From positions 1 to 34,019 of the forward strand of contig JADFPB010000004.1 of assembly GCA_022562515.1 (NCBI GenBank): a stretch of DNA of 34,019 nucleotides, in the 5' to 3' direction. Below are positions 19,601 through 23,539 of this stretch, piece after piece (position 1 is the stretch's first letter; every line of letters starts with the position of its first letter). A program made the translations under genes and the position numbers. The DNA comes from Chloroflexota bacterium (GTDB lineage: Bacteria > Chloroflexota > Dehalococcoidia > Lucifugimonadales > Lucifugimonadaceae). A model generated the notes under the pieces. It had not been told where the DNA came from. It saw only the letters and a list, made by a program, of their open reading frames with translations, and ran no database searches.

Positions 19601-20749
19601 CTAAGCCTTCTCCGCCGCGATCAGGATATCGGCGATCTCCGAGCGCGTGAACTCCGCTGGCGGCCTCTCACCCGCAACCAGCATCTCCCTGACCCTGGTA
19701 CCGCTCAGGAAAACGTGGTCTTCACCGGGGTGCGGGCAGGTCTTGGCAGTAGCCATGCCGCCGCAACTCTTGCAGTAGAAAGAGTGCTCGAACATCATCG
19801 GAGTAATACCGAGCGCCGCGGGATCAAACTCACGGAAAATGTGCTGGGCATCGTAAGTCCCGTAGTAATCCCCGACGCCCGCGTGATCGCGACCCACGAT
19901 GAAGTGGCTGCAGCCGTAGTTCTTGCGCATGATGGCGTGGAAGATCGCCTCCCGCGGCCCCGCGTAGCGCATGAACGCGGGCAGCACGGACAGAAGAGTC
20001 CTGTCAGCAGGGTAATAATCCTTGAGCAACGCCCGGTAGCACCGCATCCGCACCTCTGCGCCAATGTCCCCCGCCTTCGTCTCACCGACGAGAGGATGGA
20101 CCAGAAGTCCGTCCACCAACTCCAGCGCGCACTTCATGATGTACTCGTGCGCTCTGTGGATCGGATTCCGGGTCTGAAACCCGACGACAGTCTCCCAGCC
20201 CGCCTCTTCAAACAGCCTGCGCGTCTCGGCGGGTTTGCGGTCCGAGTCGGCGTAGACCTCAGCGGGCTCGACCGCCACCGCCCTGATGCTTCCTCCCAGC
20301 AGCACGTCGCCCTGCGAATAGAGGTTCGCAACGCCGGGATGCGCCTCGTCCTCCGTCCGGTATACCTCACGGGCCTCTAACTTCCGGTCGTACTCGAACT
20401 TCTCCTCCAGCAAGAGCGTGCCGGCCGGCTCCCCATCGCCGTTCAACAGGGCAATCTCATCGCCTTCGCGCAGGCCGGACGCGGTTGCGGAATCAGTCGA
20501 AAGCGTGACCGGAATCGTCCACGGGACGCCGCCGGGGAGATGGGCGTCTCTGACCGACCCCTCGTACTGCTCACGGTTCATGAATCCGGAGAGCGGACTG
20601 AACGCGCCAATCGAGATCATCTTGAGGTCAGAAGCCTCGCGCTCGTTGAGGTTGAGCGTTGCCATCTCAGGGGCCCTGGCCTTGAGATCGGTTGCTTCGT
20701 CGTCGGAAAGAACGCGGTCGATCAGTGCGCCGCCATGGGGGTCAATCAT
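19601..20749 (-). CDS. sat: Sulfate adenylyltransferase (ATP sulfurylase)
   Basis: 'GFQTRNPIHRAHEYIMKCALE', 'HPLVGETKAGDI', 'GCSHFIVGRDHAGVGDYYGTYDAQ', Cys cluster 'CKSCGGMATAKTCPH', 'LSGTRVREML'. ATG at 20749; an in-frame TTG at 20761 is also possible. Confidence 0.95.
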   Translation of the reverse strand: MIDPHGGALIDRVLSDDEATDLKARAPEMATLNLNEREASDLKMISIGAFSPLSGFMNREQYEGSVRDAHLPGGVPWTIPVTLSTDSATASGLREGDEIALLNGDGEPAGTLLLEEKFEYDRKLEAREVYRTEDEAHPGVANLYSQGDVLLGGSIRAVAVEPAEVYADSDRKPAETRRLFEEAGWETVVGFQTRNPIHRAHEYIMKCALELVDGLLVHPLVGETKAGDIGAEVRMRCYRALLKDYYPADRTLLSVLPAFMRYAGPREAIFHAIMRKNYGCSHFIVGRDHAGVGDYYGTYDAQHIFREFDPAALGITPMMFEHSFYCKSCGGMATAKTCPHPGEDHVFLSGTRVREMLVAGERPPAEFTRSEIADILIAAEKA

Positions 20750-20855
20750 TTTAGAAGCCAATTCCTTTTTGAAGGGGGGAGATCGTGTCAGTATTCAGGT
20801 CGCCTGGATTCAGTCGGCGGGCGTTGGGTGATTGTATTTAGTTGTGTAGAGGCGC

Positions 20856-21141: not shown

Positions 21142-21891
21142 CTAACGGGTGGCCTTTTCGACGATATGGAGGCCGCACTCCTTGGCATCCGGATCCGACT
21201 CCCACCACCAGCGCCCGGCGCGAAGATCCTCGCCCGGCTCGATTGCACGCGTGCAGGGCAGGCACCCGATGCTCGGGAATCCCTTGTCGTGCAGTTCATT
21301 GTAAGGAACGCTGTTCTCGTCCACATACGCTCGAACCTGGTCGAAATCCCAGTTTGCGAGCGGGCTGATCTTGTAATTGCCGTGCGCTTCGTCGCGCTCG
21401 ACGATCTTGATCTCGCCGCGCGCCATGCCCTGGTCGCGCCGCAGGCCGGTGATCCAGGCGCCCACTGAGTTCAGGGCCCGCTCCAGCGGCTCTACCTTGC
21501 GGATGCCGCAACAGAGCTTCCGGTTGTCTACTGACTTGTAGAAGAGGTTGTAGCCTTCCTTGCTCACCATTTCCTGAACGCTGTCCATGTCTGGCGTGAA
21601 GGCCTCAATTTCTGTCTCGTATCGGGCCGTGATCCGGTCCATCAGCGTATAGGTCTCGGTCGGAAGCCGCAGAGTGTCCAGCGTCATGACCCGTGCTCTG
21701 GGATTGATCCGCCAGAACATGTCGAAAACGGCCACGTCTTCCAGGCCGAAGCTCGACATCAGGACCAACTCTGAGCCAAAGCGGCCGTCCGCCCAGCGCA
21801 CAATCTCCTGTGGAGAGGCGCTTTCAAACCGCTCATTGAGCGTGGCCAGTTCCTGATCGCTCAGTTGTTTGATTTCCGTCGTCGTCATCAT
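21142..21891 (-). CDS. cysH: Adenylyl-/phosphoadenylyl-sulfate reductase
   Basis: 'VLMSSFGLEDVAVFDM', 'CCGIRKVEPL', 'WITGLRRDQG', 'ISPLANWDFDQV', 'GFPSIGCLPCTRAI', 'KECGLH'; the extra Cys pairs suggest the [4Fe-4S] APS reductase type. Confidence 0.95.
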   Translation of the reverse strand: MMTTTEIKQLSDQELATLNERFESASPQEIVRWADGRFGSELVLMSSFGLEDVAVFDMFWRINPRARVMTLDTLRLPTETYTLMDRITARYETEIEAFTPDMDSVQEMVSKEGYNLFYKSVDNRKLCCGIRKVEPLERALNSVGAWITGLRRDQGMARGEIKIVERDEAHGNYKISPLANWDFDQVRAYVDENSVPYNELHDKGFPSIGCLPCTRAIEPGEDLRAGRWWWESDPDAKECGLHIVEKATR

Positions 21892-21945: not shown

Positions 21946-21977
21946 AAAAACCCCTCGCATCAACTCGTTGCGAGGGG
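21946..21977 (-). terminator. Intrinsic terminator in the cysH leader (attenuator)
   Basis: Minus strand CCCCTCGCA-ACGAGTTGA-TGCGAGGGG-TTTTT(ATTT): 9-bp perfect stem plus U tract. Confidence 0.85.
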
Positions 21978-22022
21978 GCAGACCGGACAGCCGAACGCGC
22001 GCCGCTAGCCGATCTCCCTCGC
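21970..22022 (-). promoter_or_regulatory. Candidate antiterminator, mutually exclusive with the terminator at 21946-21977
   Basis: Minus strand GCGAGGG-AGATCGG (22009-22022) pairs with CCGGTCT-(GCC)-CCCTCGC (21970-21986); the 3' arm overlaps the terminator 5' arm. Confidence 0.75.
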
Positions 22023-22079
22023 GGGGCTCGGACAACAGCAGGTGCACATGTTGGCTGGTCGTTTATTCAACATCTTCAT
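22005..22079 (-). CDS. Polycysteine leader peptide (24 aa)
   Basis: ATG AAG ATG TTG AAT AAA CGA CCA GCC AAC ATG TGC ACC TGC TGT TGT CCG AGC CCC GCG AGG GAG ATC GGC TAG = MKMLNKRPANMCTCCCPSPAREIG*. Confidence 0.8.
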   Translation of the reverse strand: MKMLNKRPANMCTCCCPSPAREIG

Positions 22080-22084
22080 TCGGG

Positions 22085-22115
22085 AGTATATATCAGTTTG
22101 TGTCAGATATCACAA
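22085..22115 (-). promoter_or_regulatory. Promoter for the cysH leader
   Basis: Minus strand TTGTGA (22110-22115), 17-nt spacer, extended -10 TGA-TATATA (or TATACT); the expected start falls at or next to the ATG at 22079. Confidence 0.65.
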
Positions 22116-22117
22116 AC
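22096..22117. promoter_or_regulatory. 22-bp palindromic operator-like site, CRP/FNR-like core
   Basis: GTTTGTG-N8-CACAAAC perfect 7-bp arms; core TGTGA-N6-ACACA on the minus strand, overlapping the -35 and spacer. Confidence 0.55.
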
Positions 22118-22288: not shown

Positions 22289-23539
22289 CTACCCGGTAGG
22301 TGGCCTGGTGCCGAGCTTCACCTCTACCTGAATCGCTTCGCCATCGCGAATCACATCCGCGGTGACCACATCACCGGGACTGGTCCTTGAAGACAGGTAG
22401 GCAATCAGATCGGCAAAGTCCAGGATGGCAGCGCCATCGATCGCGGTCACTACGTCTCCGGACTCAAGGCCCGAGTTTTCTGCGGGGCCGTCCGGGATCA
22501 GGGAGTCAAGAATGGCGCCGCGAGTGTTGGAGGGAAGTCCAAGGCGCTCGGCCTCCTCAAGACCCAGGGTGCCGACCGTAACTCCGAGCCACGAATATCG
22601 ATACTCGCCATTGGCGATAAGGGCCGGCACCACGCGCTTGGCCTGATTGATCGGGACCGCGAAACCTATACCGGTGTTCACGCCGGACCGGGTTTCGATC
22701 TGCGAGTTGATGCCGATCACGCGCCCCTGCCGGTCGAGCAGCGGTCCACCCGAGTTGCCGGGGTTGATGGAGGCGTCGGTCTGGATTGCGTTCGGTATGG
22801 AGTAGTTCTGCCGGGGACTATCGATCGTCCTGCCCAGAGCGCTGATGATGCCGCGGGTGAGGGTGAAGTCCCGGCCAAACGGGGTGCCGATGGCCAGTGC
22901 GATCTCACCGGGCCTGAGATTGTCTGAGTCGCCGAGTTCGATCGGCTTCAGGTAGTCCACCGGAAGATTCACTTCAAGTACAGCCAGATCAGAGTCCGGG
23001 TCCGTGCCCAGGATCTTAGCTTCTACGTCTGTGCCATCTGGAAATAGCACCCTGACGGAATCCGCCCCTGCGACCACGTGGTGGTTGGTGACTATGCGGC
23101 CCTTGGAGTCCCAGACGAAACCGGAGCCGGTTCCTTGAGGAATCAGGCCGTCGCCCGGCCCGCGGAACGGGTCGCCGAACAACGAATTCGTCCTTCCTTC
23201 TGAGAAGACGATTATCTGGACCGTTGAATCGAGAACGTCCGCGTAGACGTCAGCGATGACCTTCTCTCCGGCCTCGACGATCTGTTCGGCCGTGAGAGAA
23301 TCGATGATCTGTTTTGCGGACGGGAACCCGTCGCTGACGATTTGGGGAGCAGTGGCCTCTGTGCTGGCAAATGTCGTCGAAGAGTCGGTGTCTGCTTCCG
23401 CCGCGCTGGCCGGCGCGAGGCTAATCGGCGAGTTGCTGACGACCAAGTCTGAACCATCCCCGCTGGAACATGCAATTGCTGTCAGAGATGCGATAGCGAT
23501 TAGCGGAAGGATCAGACGCTTGAGGGCTGGGTATTTCAT
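22289..23539 (-). CDS. Trypsin-like serine protease with PDZ domain (HtrA/DegP family), lipoprotein signal
   Basis: Lipobox-like 'IASLTAIACSS', catalytic 'VTNHHVVAGA', 'DSDLAVLEV', 'NPGNSGGPLLD', PDZ 'GAILDSLIPDGPAENSGLESGDVVTAIDG'. Confidence 0.95.
   Translation of the reverse strand: MKYPALKRLILPLIAIASLTAIACSSGDGSDLVVSNSPISLAPASAAEADTDSSTTFASTEATAPQIVSDGFPSAKQIIDSLTAEQIVEAGEKVIADVYADVLDSTVQIIVFSEGRTNSLFGDPFRGPGDGLIPQGTGSGFVWDSKGRIVTNHHVVAGADSVRVLFPDGTDVEAKILGTDPDSDLAVLEVNLPVDYLKPIELGDSDNLRPGEIALAIGTPFGRDFTLTRGIISALGRTIDSPRQNYSIPNAIQTDASINPGNSGGPLLDRQGRVIGINSQIETRSGVNTGIGFAVPINQAKRVVPALIANGEYRYSWLGVTVGTLGLEEAERLGLPSNTRGAILDSLIPDGPAENSGLESGDVVTAIDGAAILDFADLIAYLSSRTSPGDVVTADVIRDGEAIQVEVKLGTRPPTG

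Follow-up and report, generated by a model that had tools for sequence, protein, structure and literature searches.

A probable cysteine-codon transcription attenuator in the cysH leader of SAR202-type Dehalococcoidia and its recurrence before other sulfur operons

In Firmicutes, sulfur genes are controlled at the level of transcription termination by cysteine T-boxes and S-box riboswitches, which read uncharged tRNA or SAM directly. Attenuators of the trp/his/ilv class carry codons for the end product in a short upstream open reading frame (uORF), together with an intrinsic terminator and a mutually exclusive antiterminator. For cysteine, leader peptides with runs of Cys were predicted in Actinobacteria in 2005, without conserved terminator hairpins (Seliverstov et al., PMC1262725). 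According to the passages of PMC13236596 and PMC9031893 that cite Canestrari et al. 2020, leaderless polycysteine uORFs of M. smegmatis are cysteine-responsive translational attenuators. The uORFC-8-2 motif, which occurs exclusively before cysS in one alphaproteobacterial order, the Rhodobacterales, combines a Cys-codon uORF (tandem Cys codons 14-15, lying within the first stem) with an intrinsic terminator, and transcription attenuation by Cys-tRNA has been predicted for it (PMC8632094).

The locus described here lies in the window, that is, the whole 34,019-nt stretch of Chloroflexota DNA analysed. It belongs to a 2.66 Mb draft genome, estimated to be 83% complete and 5.4% contaminated, whose relatives are labelled Chloroflexi, Dehalococcoidia, SAR202 cluster. 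The leader and the genes following it comprise these features.

22097-22116, minus strand: inverted repeat TTTGTG-N8-CACAAA over the -35 region, read from the sequence
22085-22090, minus strand: -10 box TATACT, 5 nt 5' of the uORF ATG, read from the sequence
22005-22079, minus strand: leader peptide uORF of 24 codons, MKMLNKRPANMCTCCCPSPAREIG and a stop, with Cys at codons 12, 14, 15 and 16 (sequence and ORF check; homologous uORFs in relatives)
22032-22046, minus strand: putative regulatory codons TGC ACC TGC TGT TGT (Cys-Thr-Cys-Cys-Cys), from the sequence and the conservation of CxC
22009-22022, minus strand: predicted antiterminator 5' arm (arm A), GCGAGGG + AGATCGG, formed by the final uORF codons (minimum free energy structure of the stalled-ribosome RNA; conserved G-rich arm; co-variation with the terminator arm)
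21970-21986, minus strand: predicted antiterminator 3' arm, CCGGTCT-(GCC bulge)-CCCTCGC, overlapping the terminator 5' arm (folding)
21951-21977, minus strand: intrinsic terminator hairpin of 9 bp and about -17 kcal/mol, CCCCTCGCA (21977-21969), a 9-nt loop and TGCGAGGGG (21959-21951), from sequence and folding
21946-21950, minus strand: terminator U-tract TTTTT, from the sequence
21142-21891, minus strand: cysH, thioredoxin-dependent (phospho)adenylylsulfate reductase, the predicted regulated gene, with its ATG at 21891 (TIGR02055, NF002537, PF01507)
19601-20761, minus strand: sat, sulfate adenylyltransferase, the next large ORF after cysH (NF003166, score 545.9 against a cut-off of 387; TIGR00339)

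The 24-codon uORF, its Cys codons, the 9-bp hairpin with five T residues and the cysH start had been proposed in an earlier sequence-only reading, and every coordinate was confirmed to the base. By its profile scores, the protein encoded downstream belongs to the APS-reductase type of CysH (242.2 against a cut-off of 235.3 for TIGR02055 and 280.5 against 154 for NF002537, with PF01507 also matched), and its closest homologues, at 85-94% identity, come from the same genus. The operon of cysH probably includes sat. The sequence-only reading had placed cysH and sat together under the control of the leader; the two genes do adjoin, but their adjacency was seen in the genus only and a few hundred bases separate them. 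Between them lies a strong hairpin, GTAGAGGGCGG/CCGCCCTCTAC (20886-20856), with a T-rich flank on its plus-strand side only, which may limit the co-transcription of sat or may serve as a terminator for the opposite strand. The neighbourhood in other genera is cysH-cysD-cysN or tauE-cysH, with TauE first in the operon. At one locus of a draft genome (L028, G055:C79:1253-1963), cysH contains two in-frame stops and the attenuator is intact, which reflects either an assembly error or a decaying gene.

Compared with the systems above, the cysH leader shares with the trp/his/ilv class the end-product codons in a uORF, the intrinsic terminator and the mutually exclusive antiterminator, whereas it would sense cysteine, is probably leaderless rather than led by a Shine-Dalgarno (SD) sequence, and has its antiterminator arm inside the end of the uORF. 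With the mycobacterial uORFs, as they are presented in the passages cited, it has in common a short Cys-run ORF, here probably leaderless, before sulfur or cysteine operons and the occurrence of several such operons per genome; those uORFs are described as translational (PMC13236596, in the passage concerned), whereas the cysH leader possesses an intrinsic terminator, with an antiterminator that co-varies. A Cys-codon uORF, an intrinsic terminator and predicted ribosome-mediated attenuation by Cys-tRNA are likewise shared with uORFC-8-2, of which the Chloroflexota device is nevertheless not a member, having CxC-type runs, targets such as cysH, DUF4395 and metY, and a home in another phylum. 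Control of sulfur genes by termination is the point of likeness with T-boxes and S-boxes, but the cysH leader has no Rfam match in the window.

The Cys-codon run alone is weak evidence and is not rarer than chance, as the pattern TGYNNNTGYTGYTGY, which describes the spacing of the Cys codons, matched the genome 6 times against 11 times for a reversed control pattern. A Cys-run uORF combined with a terminator was found in one of the 56 1.2-kb strand-tiles of the window, namely the cysH leader. In a strict automatic test, this combination was present in 39 of 81 cysH upstream regions inside the order (SAR202-type Dehalococcoidia); 40 cysH upstream regions drawn from different orders of the same class yielded no instance, nor did their 40 reverse strands. 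Many of the other regions inside the order have a version with two Cys or a terminator that is weaker, and a looser, hand-checkable pass recovered about 57 distinct cysH leaders in the order with a Cys-run uORF and a terminator. The sharp fall at the order boundary argues against a scanning artefact, and the combination before cysH is, judged by this comparison, not a chance motif. An alignment of cysH upstream regions from relatives had been proposed as the check on the sequence-only reading, and in these regions the Cys runs, the terminators and the co-varying alternative pairing were indeed kept. A search with model R1 over 400 genomes of the phylum returned weak, mostly terminator-like matches, with no convincing polycysteine uORF at the inspected loci; in view of these matches and of the 0/40 cysH regions in other orders, an occurrence of the device beyond the order was rejected.

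Codon and promoter statistics cover 28 non-redundant family leaders. Cys is encoded at the first and third positions of the CxC core in 28/28 leaders, with TGC and TGT mixed, and the positions around it hold 7-15 kinds of residue, as can be seen from MKMLNKRPANMCTCCCPSPAREIG, MFLDNHQNCACACCATLLGTPD, MSSKFYCNCACTCRLTFETGVV and MKPVAIRVTCACTCRSGHSEGSS. Invariant Cys residues in a drifting peptide are what would be expected of a codon sensor, unlike a functional peptide, and the predicted uORF thus carries cognate codons that are conserved at the amino acid level with synonymous changes, as the leader ORF of an attenuator does. A TATACT-like -10 box (at least 5/6 matches) was present 5-12 nt before the ATG in all 28 leaders. 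Given the box at 22090-22085, the A of the uORF ATG or an adjacent base is the expected transcription start, and the uORF mRNA is probably leaderless, a feature that the sequence-only reading had raised for mycobacteria only. Outside the family, some leaders may be SD-led instead. Chloroflexi are known to have leaderless genes, at a low predicted percentage (PMC3160421). Repeats resembling TTTGTG-N8-CACAAA are located at the equivalent position elsewhere in genera g1 and g7 (L002-L004, L008, L014, L015, L018) and were not found in most other genera. As a lead only, a CRP/FNR- or Rrf2-like regulator might use this repeat as its operator, and attenuation may be overlaid by the action of a DNA-binding regulator.

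The pairing of arm A with the terminator 5' arm was stronger than in dinucleotide shuffles (Fisher P 2.5e-17 for 57 leaders, 24 of which were individually <0.05). Among 46 non-redundant leaders, arm A paired better with its own terminator (-13.7 kcal/mol) than with the terminators of others (-11.4 kcal/mol; permutation P<=5e-5), both in family f1 alone (P<=5e-5) and outside f1 (P=0.005); these Fisher and permutation tests ignore phylogeny, to which the best available answer is a control window of the same ancestry upstream of the Cys codons, where no such preference was detected (P=0.68). The leader accordingly has an intrinsic terminator between the uORF and cysH and a mutually exclusive antiterminator whose arms co-vary. 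In nearly all leaders, 0-18 nt separate the last Cys codon from the start of arm A, and in most of family f1 the end of the arm is at most about 11 nt from the stop. A ribosome at the first Cys codon would therefore leave the arm free, and one at the stop would cover it. Some families have their stop codon 40-50 nt beyond the arm and agree less well with the simple covering model.

With a ribosome modelled as stalled on the first Cys codon, the RNA running from the ribosome's 3' edge to the end of the terminator 5' arm had as its minimum free energy structure a helix of two 7-bp parts and a 3-nt bulge (-30.3 kcal/mol), which is the alternative helix that the sequence-only reading had described. 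With the ribosome at the stop codon, the terminator 5' arm of our leader was largely unpaired when folding was carried up to this arm. Across leaders folded under a ribosome mask, a median of 67% of the terminator 5' arm was paired in the stalled state and 25% at the stop (Wilcoxon P 1e-7). For our leader at full length, the terminator form reached -38.3 kcal/mol and the antiterminator form -30.3 kcal/mol, and the path from the antiterminator to the terminator has a barrier of 8.9 kcal/mol (median 5.5 across leaders). At equilibrium, nearly all leaders preferred the full-length terminator despite a stalled ribosome, P(term) in our leader being about 1.00, and our leader also takes the terminator form when folded with no ribosome. 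Because the terminator wins at equilibrium, the switch must depend on the order or kinetics of folding; such dependence is normal for attenuators and, on these folding models, would hold for the cysH leader. Equilibrium folding was rejected as proof of a switch, as the stalled and terminating states were indistinct at full length in most leaders, and evidence from folding order alone was used.

Right after the uORF stop (about 22004-21991 in the window), a GCGCGC/ACGCGT-like element is present in many genera, for which no consistent pairing partner was found in the leader alignment. A protector hairpin between the Cys codons and this element looked attractive in genera g7/g8 and was unsupported overall (Fisher P 0.10). 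The sequence-only reading had invoked the classical trp/his logic. The Cys codons, the terminator and the co-varying antiterminator agree with this, but no conserved 1:2 protector hairpin was found, and the cysH leader was therefore not filed as the four-segment trp/his form.

On comparative grounds, the parts of the leader, their conservation, selection on the Cys codons, co-variation between arm A and the terminator, and reuse on sulfur operons are established, whereas we infer the leaderless start, the stalling of the ribosome, the kinetic trapping of the antiterminator and a cysteine response. It is highly probable that the cysH leader is a ribosome-mediated transcription attenuator sensing Cys-tRNA; the same interpretation had been reached from the sequence of this one locus, and it draws support from the invariant Cys codons, the kept terminators, the co-varying pairing and the sulfur-assimilation targets. 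The transcript would start no more than a base or two from the uORF ATG, and a ribosome would translate the leader peptide behind RNA polymerase. When Cys-tRNA is ample, the ribosome would arrive at the stop codon and cover arm A (22022-22009), the terminator 5' arm would pair with its 3' arm, and transcription would end short of cysH. Under a shortage of Cys-tRNA, the ribosome would be expected to stall at 22046-22032 and leave arm A free; arm A would then capture the terminator 5' arm during transcription, presumably through kinetic trapping, and the polymerase would continue into cysH.

Other explanations of the same leader have to be weighed. Since the leaderless polycysteine uORFs of M. 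smegmatis exert their effect on translation (Canestrari 2020, in the passages of PMC13236596 and PMC9031893 that cite it), and the -10 box suggests the same leaderless start here, the uORF might gate the cysH ribosome-binding site in the mycobacterial style, the hairpin being incidental. A device of that type would occlude the ribosome-binding site without an intrinsic terminator, whereas here about 55 nt separate the cysH start from the end of a G+C hairpin with a T-tract that is kept order-wide, the conserved pairing uses the 5' arm of this terminator as the co-varying partner of arm A, and the SD-like GAGG of cysH lies outside the terminator and antiterminator structures. We regard purely translational attenuation as improbable; a mixed effect on transcription and translation is possible. 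Even less credit is due to the idea that the leader peptide or the G-rich arm has another function, such as that of a pause site resembling an SD sequence or a part in a step that depends on Rho or NusG, and that the match to the terminator arm is a by-product: arm A does resemble an SD core (GGAGGGG) and still pairs fairly well when reversed (-11.25 kcal/mol), but own pairs beat swapped pairs and the true orientation beats the reversed one (P 5e-4).

A terminator with an alternative structure before a biosynthetic gene would look riboswitch-like too, so a metabolite-binding riboswitch or a T-box with an incidental short ORF was also considered. However, a covariance-model search of the window against Rfam gave 0 matches above the gathering score, and conservation resides in the codons and in arms A/B/C, with variable spacers and no structured aptamer seen; this explanation is very hard to credit. 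An htrA-like gene (22289-23539) lies upstream of the leader on the same strand, and as the Cys-codon pattern alone is no rarer than chance, the hairpin could be imagined as the constitutive terminator of this gene next to a chance Cys-rich ORF. Against this stand dozens of genomes with invariant Cys codons, a promoter and a co-varying arm, as well as the presence of the device before unrelated sulfur operons and its absence outside the order. These comparative data refute such an origin for practical purposes, and its probability is negligible. Ribosome-mediated transcription attenuation thus remains the preferred reading of the cysH leader.

A covariance model trained on the cysH leaders of the family only was run over 76 family genomes, so that its matches at other genes are independent of what lies downstream. 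Besides those at cysH, the matches were full-length and most had a Cys-run uORF. Among 40 inspected loci, about 20 precede DUF4395 membrane proteins, the commonest non-cysH target, which suggests a role for these proteins in cysteine or reduced-sulfur metabolism. Further targets are Sulf_transp (YeeE-type) with rhodanese, TauE/SafE-type proteins, an O-acetylhomoserine sulfhydrylase-type protein (metY) with an HTS (MetA/MetX-like) protein, and two families of tiny proteins, to both of which a GLGIE motif is common. Three groups of loci are as follows.

L125, L128-L134, L136, L138-L140, L145, L147, L148, L151, L152, L156, L158, L159: attenuator loci before DUF4395
L155, L160, L135, L161, L162, L163: first tiny-protein family, a conserved protein of 36-40 residues of the MINILKIALSGLRKAVDSAQGLGIEADSLAPAPKGR type without Cys, its ORF 34-57 nt after the terminator
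L142, L143, L144, L153: second tiny-protein family, a conserved protein of 44 residues of the MATSTHIPSPIRNERPGVFRSSWTRTVSAFRRLINAVDGLGIEP type, its ORF 57-60 nt after the terminator

The genome from which the window comes has kept a DUF4395 gene (L165, G000:C92:1856-2410). Where its sister G072 has the leader (L147), it has unrelated sequence with no polycysteine uORF left, and this locus was rejected as a second instance in that genome, the gene being present and the leader replaced; it may have escaped from cysteine control. This genome is a draft, and further copies of the attenuator may exist in it. For the order as a whole, we lean towards a cis device in which each sulfur operon would have one leaderless Cys-codon transcription attenuator and Cys-tRNA charging would be the regulon-wide signal. 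The proposed targets are sulfate reduction, DUF4395, Sulf_transp with rhodanese, metY with HTS, TauE and at least two families of 36-44-residue proteins.

Among the open-licence papers searched, we found no report of Cys attenuators in Chloroflexota or SAR202; a Cys-codon uORF with a terminator had already been predicted for cysS of Rhodobacterales (PMC8632094). Attenuation by Cys codons is therefore already known; the combination of a terminator with a leaderless uORF, the targets, the phylum and the regulon-wide reuse appear to be new. If the reading is correct, this would be the first attenuator class reported for Chloroflexota, as far as the open-licence papers searched show, and it would show how bacteria that are largely uncultured, here of a marine order of Chloroflexota, may tune the assimilation of sulfate and reduced sulfur. 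It would also provide a sequence signature by which DUF4395 and the tiny proteins are assigned to the cysteine response, and a test case for 70S leaderless initiation supporting ribosome-polymerase coupling tight enough for attenuation.
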